This document shows positions 14,147 through 21,425 of a stretch of 64,000 nucleotides of DNA, in pieces. The notes under the pieces are model-generated. The model did no database searches, was not told the origin of the DNA, and saw nothing but the letters and a program-made list of their open reading frames with translations. The stretch covers positions 62,001 to 126,000 of the forward strand of contig JAENWT010000002.1 of the NCBI GenBank assembly GCA_016650125.1, in the 5' to 3' direction. The DNA is from Thermoleophilia bacterium (GTDB lineage: Bacteria > Actinomycetota > Thermoleophilia > Solirubrobacterales > 70-9). The translations under genes and the position numbers were made by a program. Positions within the stretch are counted from its first letter, which is position 1, and the number at the start of each line of letters is the position of its first letter.

Positions 14147-14647
14147 GTGTGTGGGGTGGAGTACGGGTTGCATTTTTCGAAACGCGTGAGTTCTTCAATT
14201 CGCATTTTGATTGCAGTCGTTCCGATTCTGGCCGGATTCGCCGCCATGCCCGCGATCTCTGGAGCGGCTTTTGCTCCCGCGGTCAACTACGGCACCGGCC
14301 TCGGCCCCTCATCGGTCGCGACGGGCAACCTGAATGGCGACGCTTTTCCGGACGTGGTCACCGCGAACCAGGTCGGCAACTCCGTCACCGTGCGGCTCGG
14401 CACCGGTGGAGGAGTGCTGGGCCCGGCGGCCAGCTTCGGGGCCGCGCTGGCACCGACATCGGTCGCGATCGCCGACCTGAACGGCGACACCTTCCAGGAC
14501 CTTGCGGTAACCGGTTTCGACGGCGACCACGTCTCCATCCTGCTCGGTACCGGTACCGGGGCCTTCGGGCCTCTGACCACATTCGCGACCGGTAACGGTC
14601 CGGATTCGGTGGCGATCGGCAAGCTGAACGGGGACGCGCGAAGTTAA
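14147..14647 (+). CDS. Truncated FG-GAP/VCBS repeat secreted protein
   Basis: A 166-residue protein with a signal peptide (ILIAVVPILAGFAAMPAISGA) and about two and a half FG-GAP-type repeats, each with a calcium-loop-like unit (TGNLNGDAFPDVV, IADLNGDTFQDLA, IGKLNGDA). It stops in the middle of the third calcium loop, just after GDARS. Such beta-propellers normally need seven blades, so this is probably a 3'-deleted gene or a fragment. The start is uncertain: GTG 14147 or GTG 14186, the latter directly before the signal peptide. The upstream 150 bp are A/T-richer and could hold a promoter. Confidence 0.6.
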   Translation: MCGVEYGLHFSKRVSSSIRILIAVVPILAGFAAMPAISGAAFAPAVNYGTGLGPSSVATGNLNGDAFPDVVTANQVGNSVTVRLGTGGGVLGPAASFGAALAPTSVAIADLNGDTFQDLAVTGFDGDHVSILLGTGTGAFGPLTTFATGNGPDSVAIGKLNGDARS

Positions 14648-14680
14648 ATACGTCATGATGCAGATATGGGGAGGGAAAGC

Positions 14681-15364
14681 ATGAAATACATAATCGGGTC
14701 AATCGCGATCGCCGCGCTGTTCTTCGGTGGCACCGCCACCGCTCAGGCTGCCGACGACATCGTCGCCGACGCCGCCTGCTGCACATTCATCGACGGGCCG
14801 TTCACCCAAGTGGCGGGCGAAATCCCGAAGTTCGTCAACCCGCAAGGCGCGGACGCTCCCCACAACGTGACTTCGACGGTGAACGGACCCGACGGCAACG
14901 TCCTGTTCGGGTCGGCCACGGTGCCAGCCGGTCAGAGCTCTCCCGTCGAAGGGGCCCAGTATCTGTCTGACGGCACTTATCCCTTCTTCTGCACCATTCA
15001 CGGCCTGTCGATGTCGGGTGACCTCGTCGTGGCCGGCGGTACCCCGCTGGAGCGTCCGAAGCCGGAGATCCGGCTTTCGTTCCCGGCCCAGAAGCTGAAG
15101 AGCGTGCGAAATTCCAGCAAGGTCAAGATCAAAATCAAGGGTGTGACCGACTCGTCCGGCATCAAACTGACGGTCAGCAAGGGCAAGAAGAAGCTCGGCT
15201 CAGCGTCCGGAATCTCGGTTTCCGCGGGTAAGACCAGGACGGTCGCGGTGAAGCTGACCAACAAGGGACAGAAGACCGTAAAGATTGGCAAGAAAATCCT
15301 CTTCCTGGTCAAGGGAACGGTCGCCGGCGGCAAGTCGGCGACGGCCAGGCGCACCCTGCGCTGA
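14681..15364 (+). CDS. Secreted cupredoxin-domain protein
   Basis: A 227-residue exported blue-copper-type protein. A signal peptide of about 23 residues is followed by a cupredoxin domain with the ligand set His61 (APHNVTS), Cys104 and His107 (FFCTIHG) and Met111. The C-terminal 80 residues are lysine-rich beta repeats (VKIKIKGVTDSSGIKL) like those on other secreted proteins here. The start at 14681 has GGGAGGGAAAGC directly upstream. It lies 88 nt before two larger proteins that also end in a cupredoxin domain and may exchange electrons with them. A Cys-Cys pair near residue 33 may form part of a disulfide. Confidence 0.85.
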   Translation: MKYIIGSIAIAALFFGGTATAQAADDIVADAACCTFIDGPFTQVAGEIPKFVNPQGADAPHNVTSTVNGPDGNVLFGSATVPAGQSSPVEGAQYLSDGTYPFFCTIHGLSMSGDLVVAGGTPLERPKPEIRLSFPAQKLKSVRNSSKVKIKIKGVTDSSGIKLTVSKGKKKLGSASGISVSAGKTRTVAVKLTNKGQKTVKIGKKILFLVKGTVAGGKSATARRTLR

Positions 15365-15452: not shown

Positions 15453-17270
15453 ATGTTTCATTGGGTGGAGGACAATTTTCGGTCCGGTTTCGTAGTCCGG
15501 GCAAGCCGCACCGCAGCGCTGGCTGCGGTCCTGATCGCCTGCGTCACTCTCGGCCTCGTCGCAACCGCGAAGGCCGCGCCGAGCCCGACCACCTACCTGG
15601 CGGGTGGGGTCGAGGAGACCACTTACTCGGTCGGTCCCCTCAACGTCACCTCCGGCCAGAATCGCATCGCCTACAGGCCGGTCGCCGGCGCCGAGCGTCC
15701 CGCTGTCGACGGCTGGATCACCGGAATCAAGCCCAACCTGGTGGACGAGGACGGCAACATCCCCAGCTCGGCCAAAGTCATGTTCCACCACGGGGTCTGG
15801 CTCAACCTTGCCCATGACGATCCGACTTCCAGCACGCCCGAGCGATTCTTCGGCACCGGAGAAGAGAAGACGAACATGCTTCTCCCCGACGGCTACGGCT
15901 ACCGCTACAAGAAGTCGGAGGGCTGGATCCTAAATCACATGATCCACAACCTCACGCCCGAGCCGATGACGGTGTACATCACTTACACGATCAGGTTCAT
16001 ACCGGACACGGCACCCGAGGCCGCATCGATCAAGCCGGCCCGTCCGATCTGGATGGATGTGCAGAACGGCAGCAACTACCCGGTCTTCGACGTCCATCGC
16101 GGAGACGGTGGCAGCGACCAGGAGTTCACTTACCCGGAGGAGGCCGAGAACCCCTACCCGAAGGGCGTCCAGAAGAACGAATGGACGGTCGACAGCGACG
16201 GCGTGCTGCTCGGCACCACCGGTCACGTCCACACCGGTGGACTCTCGACCGACCTCTACCTCAAGCGCGAGGGCGCGACCTACGCGGGACCGAAGTGCAA
16301 GGCGCCGTCGAAGGGCCCGGTCCGGAAGCTGAAACGCTTCGCGAAGCAGCTGAAGGTCATCAGGAAGAAGCAGAAGCGGGCGATCAAGTCTGAAGCCGAA
16401 GCCGGCAAGCTCAAGCGGCTGAGCAAGCAGAAGAAGGCGAAGCGCAAGGCATGGAAGAAGATCAAGGCGAAGGTCAAGAGGGGCAAGACGAAGTACAACG
16501 CCTGCCGTGCGACCCAGCCTTCGGTCGAAGGCAATCGCGTCCACCTCTTTGAGTCGACGGCCCACTACTTCGAGCCGGCCGGACCTGTTTCCTGGGACGT
16601 GGCCATGCTCAGCACTCACGATGACTGGCGCGTCCAGGTCAGGAAGGGCGACACGCTGGACCTCCAGACCACTTATGAAACCAAGATGGCCTCCTGGTAC
16701 GAGTCGATGGGCATCGGTGTCATCTGGATGTCGGACGAAACCAACGGCCGCGACCCCTACAAGACCAAGGTCGACGAAAAGGGAATCATCAATCACGGGC
16801 ACTACGCCGAGAACAACGACCACGGCGGCACCACGCCGACGATCGGTCCGGATCCGGCGACGCTTCCGGACGGCCTCGCCTCCGGAGGTCCTTTCGACAT
16901 CGGCGGCTACAGCTATGAAGCCGGCAACTTCCGGCTCCCCGGCGAGGCCGGACGGCCCCCGGTCGTCAAGCAGGGCCAGTCGTTCACCTTCCAGCTGACC
17001 GCCGGGGACGCGAACCAGGAAATCTGGCATTCGCTGACCTCCTGCAAGTCGCCCTGTAACAAGTCGACCGGCATCGCCTACCCGATCGCCGATGGCGAGT
17101 TCCAGTTCGACTCCGGCCAGCTGGGCAACCTGAACGGCAACGCCGCCCCGCCGACCGTGGGCCGGACGACCTGGTCAACCCCGGCGAACCTGCCGGTCGG
17201 CACGCATACATTCTTCTGCCGCATCCATCCGTTGATGCGCGGTGCCTTCCGGGTAAAGCCGAAGTCCTGA
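15453..17270 (+). CDS. DBH/PHM-like dicopper monooxygenase fused to cupredoxin, copy 1
   Basis: A 605-residue secreted protein. After a signal peptide (~residues 20-42) three segments match the copper sites of dopamine beta-hydroxylase and peptidylglycine monooxygenase. These are KVMFHHGVW (His112, His113) plus MIHNLTP (His165) for CuH, GHVHTGG (His258, His260) for CuM, and a GDTL...TTYET...SWYESMG segment (Met419) matching the GDVL...CTYNT...EMC segment that carries the CuM methionine. A basic lysine-rich insert of about 85 residues, bracketed by two cysteines, sits between the HxH and Met parts. The last 95 residues are a cupredoxin with His526, Cys589, His592 and Met595. Start 15453 follows GGGAGA. 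Substrate unknown; the assignment is by motif and order, not a search. Confidence 0.7.
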   Translation: MFHWVEDNFRSGFVVRASRTAALAAVLIACVTLGLVATAKAAPSPTTYLAGGVEETTYSVGPLNVTSGQNRIAYRPVAGAERPAVDGWITGIKPNLVDEDGNIPSSAKVMFHHGVWLNLAHDDPTSSTPERFFGTGEEKTNMLLPDGYGYRYKKSEGWILNHMIHNLTPEPMTVYITYTIRFIPDTAPEAASIKPARPIWMDVQNGSNYPVFDVHRGDGGSDQEFTYPEEAENPYPKGVQKNEWTVDSDGVLLGTTGHVHTGGLSTDLYLKREGATYAGPKCKAPSKGPVRKLKRFAKQLKVIRKKQKRAIKSEAEAGKLKRLSKQKKAKRKAWKKIKAKVKRGKTKYNACRATQPSVEGNRVHLFESTAHYFEPAGPVSWDVAMLSTHDDWRVQVRKGDTLDLQTTYETKMASWYESMGIGVIWMSDETNGRDPYKTKVDEKGIINHGHYAENNDHGGTTPTIGPDPATLPDGLASGGPFDIGGYSYEAGNFRLPGEAGRPPVVKQGQSFTFQLTAGDANQEIWHSLTSCKSPCNKSTGIAYPIADGEFQFDSGQLGNLNGNAAPPTVGRTTWSTPANLPVGTHTFFCRIHPLMRGAFRVKPKS

Positions 17271-17286
17271 TTCAGGAAGGGTTCAA

Positions 17287-19218
17287 ATGAGGGGAATTTC
17301 ACTTCTCGGTTCACTGGCGATCGCTGCGTTACTGCTGTTCCTCGCTCCCGCAGCGCATGCCTTGCAGGCAGAGGTGGGTTCGAAGAAGACCCTCGCCGAC
17401 GGCGTCACCCAGCAGATCACCTACGAGATCCCCCTCAAGACTGTGACGTCGGGGCAGAACAAGATCCGGAACAAGCTGGTTTCCAACGACTCCGAAAAGC
17501 CAACGGTGGATGGCTGGATCACTAGCTTCAAGCCGAACCTCATCTACTCGAAAAACGGCCAGCTGAACGCCGGCCAGATCCCCAGCTCGAGCAAAGTCAT
17601 GTTCCACCATGGTGTTTTCATCAACATTTCAAGCGGCGGGCCGTTCTTCGCGACCGGTGAAGAGAAGACGCAGATGCTCCTGCCCGACGGTTACGGCTAC
17701 CGCTACAGGGCGAGCGACATCTGGTACCTCAACGAGATGATCCACAACCTGACGCCGGCCGTGATGGAACTCACTGCCACCTACACCATCGAATTCATCC
17801 CGGACACCGCTCCGGAGGCTGCCGCGATCAAGCCTGCCGAACCGATCTGGATGGATGTCGAAAACGGCCAGAACGGCGGTTACCCGGTCTTCGATGTGTT
17901 GCGTGATTCCGGCGGAGCCGATGGCGAATTCTCGTACCCGCAGGACGATCCGGATGCCTACCCGCCCGGGGTTCACCTGAACGAGTGGAAGGCCGGCCAG
18001 GACGGCGTGCTTCTCGGGACGACCGGCCACGTCCACACCGGTGGACTCTCGACCGAACTCTTCATGAAGCGTCCCGGCGCCGGCTACACCGGTTCCACCT
18101 GTGACCAGCCGGTCGATCGCGACGCCGAGTACGCCAGCCTCACCACGGTGATTGAGAAGACCACCGGGAACCAGGCGAAGATCAAGGCGCTGCTCAAGAC
18201 GAAGGCAATCAAAAAGCTGAAGAAGTCGATGAAGCCCGGCAAGATGAAGAAGCTCCGGAAGTCGATGGCCCCGCGCAAGTTCAAGAAGATGAAGCGCCGG
18301 AAGACGAAGCGCCTCAAACGTCTGAAGAAGGTCAATTCGGCCAAATTGGCGCAGCTTCGTCAAGTGAGCAAGCGCAGGCAGGACGCGATCTCTGACAAGA
18401 CCGAGGTCGAAGCCAAGGCTGACGCCGAGCAGAAGGCATACGACGATTGCACCGCAACGATCCCCACGGTCGAAGGCAACCGGGTCCGCCTGTTCGAATC
18501 CACCGCCCATTACTTCGAGCCGGCCGGTCCGGTGTCCTGGGACATGGCGATGGTCAGCACCAAGGACGACTGGCGGGTGCAGGTCAAGCAGGGCGACACG
18601 CTGGAGATCCAGACCACCTACGAGACGGAGATCGGCTCGTGGTACGAGTCGATGGGCATCAACGTCGTCTTCTGGGCACCGGGTGAAGAAAACGGCCGCG
18701 ATCCTTACAAGACGAAGGTCGACACGCCCGGAGTGCTCAACCACGGCCATTACCCGGAGAACGACGACCACGGCGGAGAATTGCCGGTCGTCGGCCAGGA
18801 TCCGACGACCCGGCCGGACGGCCTGATGTCGGGCGGACCCTTTGACATTGGCGGCTACAGCTACGAAGCCGGCAACTTCCGTCTGCCGGGCACTGCCGGC
18901 AATCCTCCGGTCGTCGAGCAGGGCGATTCGTTCACCTTCCAGCTGACCGCGGCTGACGCGAACCAGGAAATCTGGCACTCGCTGACCTCCTGCAAGGTGC
19001 CCTGTAACAAGTCGACCGGCATCGCCTACCCGCTGCCGGACGGTGAGTTCCAGTTCGACTCCGGCCAGCTAGGCAACCTGAACGGCAACGCCGCTCCGCC
19101 GACCGTGGGCCGGACCACGTGGTCAACCCCGGCGAACCTGCCGGTCGGCACGCACACCTTCTTCTGCCGCATCCATCCGTTGATGCGTGGCGCTTTTCGA
19201 GTCAAACCCAAAAGCTGA
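17287..19218 (+). CDS. DBH/PHM-like dicopper monooxygenase fused to cupredoxin, copy 2
   Basis: A 643-residue tandem paralogue of the previous gene, 16 nt downstream with AGGAAGGG before the ATG. The same order is present: signal peptide (LLLFLAPAAHA), His107/His108 (VMFHHGVF), His153 (MIHNLTP), His248/His250 (GHVHTGG), a longer lysine-rich insert (~residues 270-385) between cysteines, Met456 (WYESMG), and the cupredoxin His564, Cys627, His630, Met633. The N-terminal two thirds have diverged from copy 1, yet the last 58 residues are identical. That suggests gene conversion or selection on the blue-copper domain. Expected outside the cytoplasmic membrane. No membrane anchor besides the signal is seen. 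Confidence 0.7.
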   Translation: MRGISLLGSLAIAALLLFLAPAAHALQAEVGSKKTLADGVTQQITYEIPLKTVTSGQNKIRNKLVSNDSEKPTVDGWITSFKPNLIYSKNGQLNAGQIPSSSKVMFHHGVFINISSGGPFFATGEEKTQMLLPDGYGYRYRASDIWYLNEMIHNLTPAVMELTATYTIEFIPDTAPEAAAIKPAEPIWMDVENGQNGGYPVFDVLRDSGGADGEFSYPQDDPDAYPPGVHLNEWKAGQDGVLLGTTGHVHTGGLSTELFMKRPGAGYTGSTCDQPVDRDAEYASLTTVIEKTTGNQAKIKALLKTKAIKKLKKSMKPGKMKKLRKSMAPRKFKKMKRRKTKRLKRLKKVNSAKLAQLRQVSKRRQDAISDKTEVEAKADAEQKAYDDCTATIPTVEGNRVRLFESTAHYFEPAGPVSWDMAMVSTKDDWRVQVKQGDTLEIQTTYETEIGSWYESMGINVVFWAPGEENGRDPYKTKVDTPGVLNHGHYPENDDHGGELPVVGQDPTTRPDGLMSGGPFDIGGYSYEAGNFRLPGTAGNPPVVEQGDSFTFQLTAADANQEIWHSLTSCKVPCNKSTGIAYPLPDGEFQFDSGQLGNLNGNAAPPTVGRTTWSTPANLPVGTHTFFCRIHPLMRGAFRVKPKS

Positions 19219-19237: not shown

Positions 19238-19252
19238 CAACGAGGAGAACTC

Positions 19253-19573
19253 ATGAGTGAAGTCGTCGTACTGGCCATTTTCACCGCAAAAGAGGGCAAG
19301 GTCGAAGAAGTGATCGAGCGGTTCTCGCCGGTCATCGAACAGACCCATGGCGAGGCCGGCTGTCTCGCCTACGCGCTGCACCGGGACGTGAACGATCCGA
19401 ACACGCTGGCGCTGGTCGAACGGTGGAAGTCGCAGGAGGACCTGAACGCCCACTTCGGGATGCCGTATATGGCCGAGGTCGGGAACATCGCATCGGAACT
19501 GCTGGTCGAACCGCCGCGCATCGTCTTCAGCACCCCGGAGCCAGTCGGCGATCCGGCCAAGAGCACGCTCTAG
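19253..19573 (+). CDS. Antibiotic biosynthesis monooxygenase (ABM) domain protein
   Basis: A 106-residue dimeric ferredoxin-like (ABM/YgiN-type) protein: VVVLAIFTAKEGKVEEVIE at the start, GCLAYALHRDVNDP in the middle, and WKSQEDLNAHFGMPYM toward the end. Members act as cofactor-free quinol or polyketide monooxygenases or as small stress proteins. The start at 19253 is fixed by GAGGAG 5 nt upstream; a longer frame from 19187 would overlap the preceding gene. It lies 34 nt after the second copper protein, so it may belong to the same transcript through the hairpin. Cytoplasmic, as no signal is visible. Confidence 0.85.
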   Translation: MSEVVVLAIFTAKEGKVEEVIERFSPVIEQTHGEAGCLAYALHRDVNDPNTLALVERWKSQEDLNAHFGMPYMAEVGNIASELLVEPPRIVFSTPEPVGDPAKSTL

Positions 19574-19664: not shown

Positions 19665-21425
19665 ATGGCCCTGCTGATTCTTTTCGGATTCATCGCGGGC
19701 GCGGCCACCGCCGTGTCGCCCTGCGTACTGCCCGTGCTGCCGGTGGCCCTGTCGGCCGGAGCGACCGGTGGCCATCGCCGCCCGATCGGAATCGTCGCTG
19801 GGCTGACCGTCTCGTTCACCTTCGCCATCGTCGCGCTCGTCTACGTGATCGATGCGCTCGGGCTGCCCGACGACCTGCTGCGCAACCTGGCGATCGTCGT
19901 GCTGCTGCTTTTCGGCGTGACCCTCCTGGTGCCGGCGCTGTCGACCCGCTTCGAGGGTTACCTCAGCCGGCTGACCAGCCGGTTCCAGCCGAAGTCGGGT
20001 ACCGGCGACGGGTTCTGGTCCGGCGTTCTGGTCGGGGCCAGTCTGGGTCTCGTCTATGCGCCGTGCGCCGGGCCGATCCTTGCCGGGGTCATCACCGTCT
20101 CGGCCTCGCAACCCTTCACCGCCGGGCGCCTTGCGGTCGCGCTCAGTTACGGCCTCGGATCAGCCGTGGTCCTCTACCTGCTGATGATCGGTGGCCGTCG
20201 CCTGATCGGGCCGCTCAGCAAACGGGTGCCGAAGCTGCAGGCGGGGATGGGCGCGATCATGATCGTCGTCGCGATGTTGATGCTCGGGCAGTACGACCTG
20301 AAGTTCCAGAACCGGATCGCCGATGATCTGCCCGCTTTCCTGGTCAACCCGACGAAGAGCCTCGAGGACAGCGATTCCGCCCGGGATGCCCTGGTCGACA
20401 TCCGCGATGTCAACCACAGCAAGGCGGCGCAGCAACTGGCGAACGGTGTGGCCGCGGCCCGGGAAGAGTCGACGCCACCGAAGGCGGACCTGCCGGTGCT
20501 CGGCACCGCTCCGGAGTTCGCCGGCAACCAGCGGTGGTTCAACACCCCCGGGGACAATCCGCTCACCCTCGCTTCGCTGAAGGGACGGGTGGTCCTGGTC
20601 GACTTCTGGACCTACAGCTGTGTGAACTGTATCCGCACCCAGCCGTATCTCAAGGCATGGGACGAGCGGTACCGCGACAAGGGCCTGACCATCGTCGGCG
20701 TCCACACGCCCGAGTTCCCCTTCGAAAAGGACGCCGGCAACGTGCAGGACGCGATCGACCGCGCCGGCTTGAAGTATCCGGTCGCCCAGGACAATGACTT
20801 CGTCACCTGGGACGCCTACGCCAACCAGTACTGGCCCGCCGAGTACTTCATCGACGCCGAGGGCAAGGTCCGTTTCGCCCATTTCGGCGAAGGCGACTAC
20901 GACGAAAAAGAGGACGTGATCCGGGAGCTCCTGGCCGAAGCCGGCCGCGATCCCGGCGCCGGAATGTCGGGGGCGAAAGGGGAGACCGCCTCGTCCGGTC
21001 TGACCACGCCCGAGAGCTACCTCGGGTCGGCCCGGGCCCAGAACTTCCGGAACGGAATCATCCTCGACGGCGTCCACGACTTCGGCGCGCTGAAGGAGCC
21101 GGAACAGGACGGGCTCTCCTATGGCGGCAAGTGGCGCGTCTCACCCGACTACGCAACATCCGACGGCGGTCAGCTCGAGCTCAAGTTCGGCGCGAAGAAG
21201 GTCTATCTCGTGCTCGGCTCGCCCGGGACTCCGCGAACCGTCGGGGTCGAGCTCGACGGCAAGCCGATTGATCCGGGTGTCGCCGGCAAGGACGTGAAGG
21301 GCGGGGTGGTGACGGTCGACGGCGAACGCCTCTACGAGCTGATCGACCTGCCGGAGGCCGGCGATCACACGCTGACCCTCTCGCCCGAGTCGGGTATCGA
21401 GGGTTACGCCTTCACCTTCGGCTGA
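19665..21425 (+). CDS. dipZ: DipZ: CcdA-type membrane domain plus thioredoxin
   Basis: A 586-residue thiol-disulfide protein. Residues 1-220 are a CcdA/DsbD-like six-helix transporter with the paired cysteines in VSPCVLPVLPVA and YAPCAGPIL. A linker leads to a thioredoxin-like domain (~280-430) with the active site YSCVNCIRTQPYLKAW. The last ~130 residues are a beta-rich domain (YGGKWRVSPDYA) as in mycobacterial DipZ. It should carry electrons from cytoplasmic thioredoxin to extracytoplasmic thiols. Inference: its position just after the copper proteins suggests a role in their disulfides or in keeping the cupredoxin cysteine reduced for metallation. Confidence 0.92.
   Translation: MALLILFGFIAGAATAVSPCVLPVLPVALSAGATGGHRRPIGIVAGLTVSFTFAIVALVYVIDALGLPDDLLRNLAIVVLLLFGVTLLVPALSTRFEGYLSRLTSRFQPKSGTGDGFWSGVLVGASLGLVYAPCAGPILAGVITVSASQPFTAGRLAVALSYGLGSAVVLYLLMIGGRRLIGPLSKRVPKLQAGMGAIMIVVAMLMLGQYDLKFQNRIADDLPAFLVNPTKSLEDSDSARDALVDIRDVNHSKAAQQLANGVAAAREESTPPKADLPVLGTAPEFAGNQRWFNTPGDNPLTLASLKGRVVLVDFWTYSCVNCIRTQPYLKAWDERYRDKGLTIVGVHTPEFPFEKDAGNVQDAIDRAGLKYPVAQDNDFVTWDAYANQYWPAEYFIDAEGKVRFAHFGEGDYDEKEDVIRELLAEAGRDPGAGMSGAKGETASSGLTTPESYLGSARAQNFRNGIILDGVHDFGALKEPEQDGLSYGGKWRVSPDYATSDGGQLELKFGAKKVYLVLGSPGTPRTVGVELDGKPIDPGVAGKDVKGGVVTVDGERLYELIDLPEAGDHTLTLSPESGIEGYAFTFG

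Follow-up and report, generated by a model that had tools for sequence, protein, structure and literature searches.

The question raised by this locus is whether two neighbouring bacterial genes encode relatives of the copper hydroxylases dopamine beta-hydroxylase (DBH) and PHM that carry a blue-copper domain of their own and, if so, how electrons would reach their active site. PHM and DBH, textbook examples of cooperation between two copper atoms far apart, are known chiefly from animals, are driven by ascorbate, and make amidated peptides (PHM) and noradrenaline (DBH). The genes lie in a stretch of 64,000 nucleotides (the window) from a soil-type actinobacterium, Thermoleophilia bacterium (assembly GCA_016650125.1, contig JAENWT010000002.1, positions 62,001 to 126,000), and the genes for P0001, P0002, and P0003 and the parts of P0001 and P0002 given below by position are on its + strand. 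P0001 (605 residues, 15453..17270) is composed of a signal peptide, a PHM/DBH-like core with two putative copper sites that resembles the SURNod19 family, a Lys-rich insert, and a C-terminal cupredoxin domain. P0002 (643 residues, 17287..19218) is a paralogue in tandem with P0001 that shares this domain order and has a longer Lys-rich insert. The two open reading frames (ORFs) share a strand and are separated by a 16-base gap, with GGGAG located just 5′ of the P0001 ATG and AGGAAGG 5′ of the P0002 ATG. This is in agreement with a preliminary description of the DNA, which had placed an HH pair, a single His, HxH, and Met, followed by a cupredoxin ligand set, in each of two tandem ORFs and had considered both products to be secreted; a hydrophobic signal peptide is legible directly in each sequence. 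We propose, with a probability of about 0.6, that P0001 and P0002 are secreted three-copper oxidoreductases in which an O2-activating dicopper hydroxylase core is fed by the type-1 copper of the same protein.

In PHM and DBH, the CuM site binds O2 and the substrate, and the CuH site supplies an electron (PMC4846438). The putative CuH ligands of P0001 are His112-His113 (15786..15791) and His165 (15945..15947), and the putative CuM ligands are His258-x-His260 (16224..16232) and Met419 (16707..16709). The ligand alignment places the corresponding residues of P0002 at His107-His108 (17605..17610), His153 (17743..17745), His248-x-His250 (18028..18036), and Met456 (18652..18654). Conservation was assessed in a close-family alignment of 32 members and in a wide alignment (A5) of 23 divergent homologues with identity down to 26%. 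Among the 32 members, conservation is conspicuous at the HH pair, single His, HxH, Met, and the four type-1 ligands; a divergent paralogue from the same genome (L004/L037) departs from this pattern, with its single His and type-1 Met shifted. The invariant columns of the 23-member set are P62, H112, H113, E138, G149, H258, H260, G262, S368, Y408, and M419, and the only His, Met, Cys, or Tyr columns of the core at 100% are the HH pair, HxH, M419, and Y408. Conservation of the ligands in homologues, a point on which the preliminary description had staked its interpretation, is thus found for HH, HxH, and Met. His165 is present in 20 of the 23 proteins and in every cupredoxin fusion except L037. 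A few members of the wide family carry Met at this position and a His two positions C-terminal to it, which would lie on the same face of a strand, so that the position of the third CuH ligand may shift.

When recomputed, the spacings between the ligand groups of P0001 were 52, 93, and 159, as the preliminary description had given them. Its values for DBH (70, 79, and 73) also match the numbering in the human DBH structure paper, in which the ligands are H262, H263, and H333 for one site and H412, H414, and M487 for the other (PMC4846438). The excess of 86 residues between HxH and Met had been ascribed to the Lys-rich insert, and this holds because relatives that are free of the insert (L025, L028, L032, and L051) have an HxH-to-Met spacing of exactly 73, identical to human DBH. 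The spacings of the non-fused SURNod19-type proteins, described below, are similar to those of DBH as well (74/77/72 in L036 and 71/77/72 in L038). The insert itself is lineage-specific, extends from Cys282 to Cys351 in P0001 (16296..16505), and is closed by these two cysteines, the corresponding pair in P0002 being Cys272 and Cys388. It is also the only part of P0001 that was modelled by AlphaFold2 with a predicted local distance difference test (pLDDT) score of about 70–82, as a helical hairpin, from an alignment of three sequences.

The relationship of the core to PHM and DBH became apparent at the level of profiles. In single-sequence searches, no Pfam or NCBIfam model claimed the core of P0001 or P0002, and searches of Pfam, NCBIfam, PADLOC, and the PDB gave nothing meaningful for this region; weak matches such as those to EBV-NA1, FapA, S5, and Csm4 were rejected as due to chance or lying largely within the Lys-rich insert. 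For profile–profile comparisons, a reference profile was built from six, and then eleven, bacterial proteins with Cu2_monoox_C domains. These proteins are genuine PHM/DBH relatives, since their profiles find PHM (E 7.7e-7) and DBH (E 1.3e-6) in the PDB. The 23-member core aligned with this bacterial Cu2_monooxygenase profile in hhalign with a score of 48.7 (P 6e-6), while the scores of 150 column-shuffled profiles averaged 15.2 (standard deviation 2.5) and peaked at 22.8, and those of reversed profiles were about 14. Taken by itself, the non-fused SURNod19-type branch scored 44.3 (26.5 at most after shuffling), and the close window family, likewise by itself, gave a modest 34.8 (P 6e-4; 23.5 at most after shuffling). 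Because these scores far exceed those of the shuffled and reversed controls, the homology does not rest on a motif recognized by eye. Five of the six ligands are in register in the comparison, and a looser, extended realignment pairs HH with HH, LPxGxG with PxGxG, HxH with HxH, and Met with the DEMC Met. The core shares with DBH, PHM/PAM, tyramine beta-hydroxylase, and MOXD1 (PF01082/PF03712) the order HH-H-HxH-M, the ligand spacing, the profile homology, the LPxGxG motif that precedes the single His, and the GDxL...Y motif that precedes the Met. However, unlike these enzymes, P0001 and P0002 have no Pfam match, no conserved disulphide cysteines, and no DOMON or amidating-lyase domain, and they carry a C-terminal type-1 copper domain instead. 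Of the assignment made in the preliminary description, membership of the superfamily stands on the profile homology, ligand order, five-ligand register, and spacing, whereas filing under the classical 'copper type II, ascorbate-dependent' family has to be given up. Because both the cysteines and the Pfam match are absent, the appropriate name for P0001 and P0002 is SURNod19-type relatives within the PHM/DBH superfamily rather than classical members.

The nearest named family of P0001 and P0002, as judged by profile comparison, is SURNod19 (PF07712), the plant and fungal stress up-regulated Nod 19 proteins that include NOD19 and MtN19, and this link is far stronger than the one to PHM/DBH. P0001 and P0002 themselves fall below the Pfam model and give no SURNod19 match, and sub-threshold matches were found in 9 of 28 close relatives (best E 2.8e-4). 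The cut-off of 25 bits is passed by the paralogue from the same genome (L037, 39.5 bits) and, with 33 to 43 bits, by three proteins from this phylum that lack the fusion. The close window family aligned with the non-fused SURNod19-type proteins with a probability of 100, a P of 3.1e-43, and a score of 299.8 (shuffled maximum 28). The matches to the SURNod19 hidden Markov model (HMM) cover only its C-terminal half (248–374 of 377), so that the N-terminal half, with a possible HH pair, lies outside them. Within the covered half, rescoring of L035 on the HMM after single Ala substitutions cost 5.1 and 5.3 bits for the two HxH histidines, 4.4 bits for the Met, and 5.5 bits for the Tyr, with neighbouring control positions at −2.1 to +2.7 bits. 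The SURNod19 model, which derives from curated family members, thus demands the CuM set and the nearby Tyr. Arabidopsis NOD19 probably carries an HH pair, which is a lead for the plant members. P0001 and P0002 share with SURNod19 the core profile and the HxH, Tyr, and Met that its HMM demands; they differ in adding an amicyanin-like cupredoxin domain and a Lys-rich insert, and the position of the single His varies between the branches.

L004/L037 is a third family member in the same genome, located on another contig (C24, about 32.6–34.1 kb); it is shorter (480 residues), more divergent, and free of the Lys-rich insert, and L037, which passes both the SURNod19 and the Copper-bind cut-offs, is the clearest bridge from the window family to SURNod19. 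L035, L036, L038, and L050 are non-fused actinobacterial SURNod19-type proteins; they have no cupredoxin domain, and their ligands are spaced much as in DBH.

The blue-copper domain occupies the C-terminal 130 residues. The cupredoxin domain of P0001 (16878..17261; ligands H526, C589, H592, and M595) and that of P0002 (18826..19215; ligands H564, C627, H630, and M633) are 93% identical. Cupredoxin_1 matches in relatives are weak, and the best PDB match of the A5 profile for this domain is amicyanin (E 1.8e-6). The amicyanin-type loop C-x2-H-x2-M is present (CRIHPLM), and the four type-1 ligands are found in all fused members except L004/L037, whose Met does not align. The cupredoxin set noticed in the preliminary description therefore belongs to a real amicyanin-type domain with conserved ligands. 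As in amicyanin- and plastocyanin-type cupredoxins, the ligands follow the H...C-x2-H-x2-M arrangement; unlike in these proteins, the domain is fused to a core, a long insertion separates the first His from the C-x2-H-x2-M loop, and the first His is followed by an extra C-x3-C (C531 and C535) that is nearly invariant in the close family. A type-1 and a type-2 copper in one secreted protein are also found in copper nitrite reductases and their cupredoxin-tethered forms. However, the type-2 part of P0001 and P0002 has the ligand set HH-H-HxH-M and would belong to a different fold family, with no nitrite reductase core, and an identity as copper nitrite reductase was ruled out, as the match is weak and confined to the type-1 loop. 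The cupredoxin parts of the two genes (16974–17243 and 18922–19191; P0001 codons 508–597) are 91–93% identical in DNA. Because third-position identity reaches 80–87% there versus about 50–65% over most of the rest, the sequences point to a recent gene-conversion tract confined to the blue-copper domain.

Two further observations concern the surroundings of this domain and its counterparts. Between the core and the cupredoxin domain of P0001 lies a conserved His-rich motif (16794–16829, from H448 onward, HGHYAENNDHGG), in which H448 is invariant in close relatives and variable in the wide family; it is possibly an extra metal or interdomain site. In seven bacterial Cu2_monoox_C proteins (L043, L045, and L075–L079), the core is preceded by a CxxCH cytochrome-c-like segment (CASCH and similar), and several of them also contain a YceI-like region (PDB YceI, E 0.015 in a profile search). 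In these proteins, too, a PHM-like core is naturally coupled to a possible electron carrier.

A translated search of 399 genomes from the class detected relatives in 92 of them, representing 38 of the 128 genera, and the nearest named record is a Solirubrobacterales metagenome-assembled genome (L005). Wider profile searches revealed fused and non-fused forms in other actinobacterial classes, and no relative was found in the phages, plasmids, or viral contigs searched. A 1369-residue 'fusion' in L080 was an artefact of read-through of upstream out-of-frame sequence. Upstream of P0001, the window encodes P0003 (232 residues, 14666..15364), a small secreted cupredoxin with a Lys-rich C-terminal domain, encoded by a conserved operon partner of the fusion gene (ligands H66, C109-x2-H112-x3-M116; Cupredoxin_1 E 8.6e-4, below the cut-off). 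Its homologue lies directly upstream of a family member, on the same strand, in L005 and in each of the 14 genus members that gave a match (this genome, G186, G238, G240, G254, G260, G274, G290, G355, G378, G383, G668, G669, and G671). In four other genera a P0003 homologue is present and not adjacent to the family member, and in one relative from another family of the order (L096) a different small cupredoxin gene lies directly downstream. The conserved pairing supports a cupredoxin as the electron donor and is not proof of it. Just upstream of the P0003 gene is a short secreted FG-GAP repeat ORF (14147–14647, 166 residues), perhaps truncated. Directly after P0002, a small gene with an ABM (antibiotic biosynthesis monooxygenase) domain (19241–19573), whose longest ORF overlaps the end of P0002, is followed by a CcdA–TlpA-type fusion (19665–21425) with a CcdA/DsbD-type membrane domain, a TlpA-like thioredoxin, and a C-terminal Thioredoxin_10 domain. 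The product of this fusion could help secreted cuproproteins to mature, through thiols or copper. Outside the genus, the gene neighbourhoods (uvrB/uvrA and TetR regulators) contain no hint of a substrate.

In the mechanism that we favour, the N-terminal core, a member of the SURNod19 branch, would use its CuH site (HH and H) as the electron-transfer copper and its CuM site (HxH and Met) as the copper for O2 and substrate. The C-terminal type-1 domain would accept single electrons from outside, with the secreted cupredoxin P0003 as the probable donor, and hand them to the core, so that ascorbate would no longer be needed; replacement of ascorbate by blue copper, as the preliminary description had suggested, is plausible. 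The core would then activate O2 and hydroxylate a C–H bond of a substrate that, by analogy with PHM and DBH, would be a small extracellular molecule. We infer the copper content, fold, hydroxylase chemistry, and electron path from the features described above, and several observations weigh against the proposal. The search with the Cu2_monooxygen and Cu2_monoox_C models that the preliminary description had proposed as a check gave no match, at E up to 1 for either protein or up to 10 for 23 homologues. The conserved cysteines of PHM/DBH type are absent, Cys282 and Cys351 being the only cysteines of the mature P0001 core, while the alignment of comparison proteins (A6) contains many invariant Cys. 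In the profile alignment the single His misses its PHM-type counterpart by one residue, and the conservation of H165 (87% in the wide family) is not strict. PHM and DBH have a paired jelly-roll fold with the two copper sites about 11–14 Å apart; AlphaFold2 models of the mature protein and of the cupredoxin domain alone reached a pLDDT of 38 and 41, respectively, with alignments of only three sequences. The non-fused relatives lack a cupredoxin domain, so the type-1 domain is an add-on and not essential to the core, and at the window locus no neighbouring gene names a substrate.

These points have to be set against other explanations. That the motifs match fortuitously, and that P0001 and P0002 are unrelated secreted beta-sandwich proteins with some conserved histidines, would account for the lack of a Pfam domain on the core and for the modest P of 6e-4 of the closest relatives alone. 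However, it is highly improbable in light of scores that lie well above 60–150 shuffles and reversed profiles, a register that matches ligand for ligand, a spacing equal to that of DBH in members without the insert, and the connection via SURNod19; as far as profile statistics are concerned, this explanation is already refuted. It is more conceivable, although still unlikely, that the proteins are non-catalytic secreted copper binders (buffers, carriers, or sensors) that retained the PHM-type sites, acquired a cupredoxin domain, and act on extracellular copper instead of oxidizing a substrate. The presence of several paralogues in a genome, the separate secreted cupredoxin gene alongside, the lack of a metabolic neighbour, and the copper-responsive expression of the plant relative are in line with such a role. 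A working active site is suggested instead by the strictness with which both complete ligand sets, the Tyr near CuM, and the non-ligand GEEK and LPxGxG motifs are conserved.

The supply of electrons may also differ from our proposal. The core could be a PHM/DBH-like hydroxylase that is reduced by another small reductant or that uses H2O2, an option open to copper polysaccharide monooxygenases, with the cupredoxin domain docking a partner or serving another reaction instead of relaying electrons to CuH. This would fit with the non-fused SURNod19-type actinobacterial proteins, which keep the core without a cupredoxin domain. We consider it unlikely, and somewhat less probable than a copper-handling role. 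Against it, the fusion is kept in all but a few non-fused members and across actinobacterial classes, and the type-1 ligands are as conserved as those of the core.

The link to SURNod19 extends to plants. NOD19 is described as a secretory or membrane-associated protein of elusive function (PMC10326430), and its function has been called 'currently unknown' (PMC9632046). In bean, NOD19 is a validated target of miR398, and its level falls in copper deficiency and, leaves excepted, rises in copper excess (PMC3882225). The other targets of miR398 include Cu/Zn superoxide dismutases and their copper chaperone, COX5b, and a blue-copper protein (PMC9502370 and PMC4005643). In the open-access literature we found no paper that joins SURNod19 with dopamine beta-hydroxylase; an automatic assignment to a PHM/PNGase F superfamily may exist. 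The broader proposal, for which we see the odds as evenly balanced, is that SURNod19, including plant NOD19, would be an unrecognized branch of the PHM/DBH dicopper monooxygenases, and that fusion to an amicyanin-like domain in actinobacteria would have produced ascorbate-free, three-copper secreted hydroxylases that receive electrons through cupredoxins. A bacterial form with built-in type-1 copper would be a tractable system for the entry and crossing of electrons, a long-standing question for the PHM/DBH class. For plant NOD19, the link to SURNod19 provides a first mechanistic hypothesis, and if SURNod19 proteins are indeed copper enzymes, this would explain its control by copper and by miR398, a microRNA with several other targets that are copper proteins or a copper chaperone.

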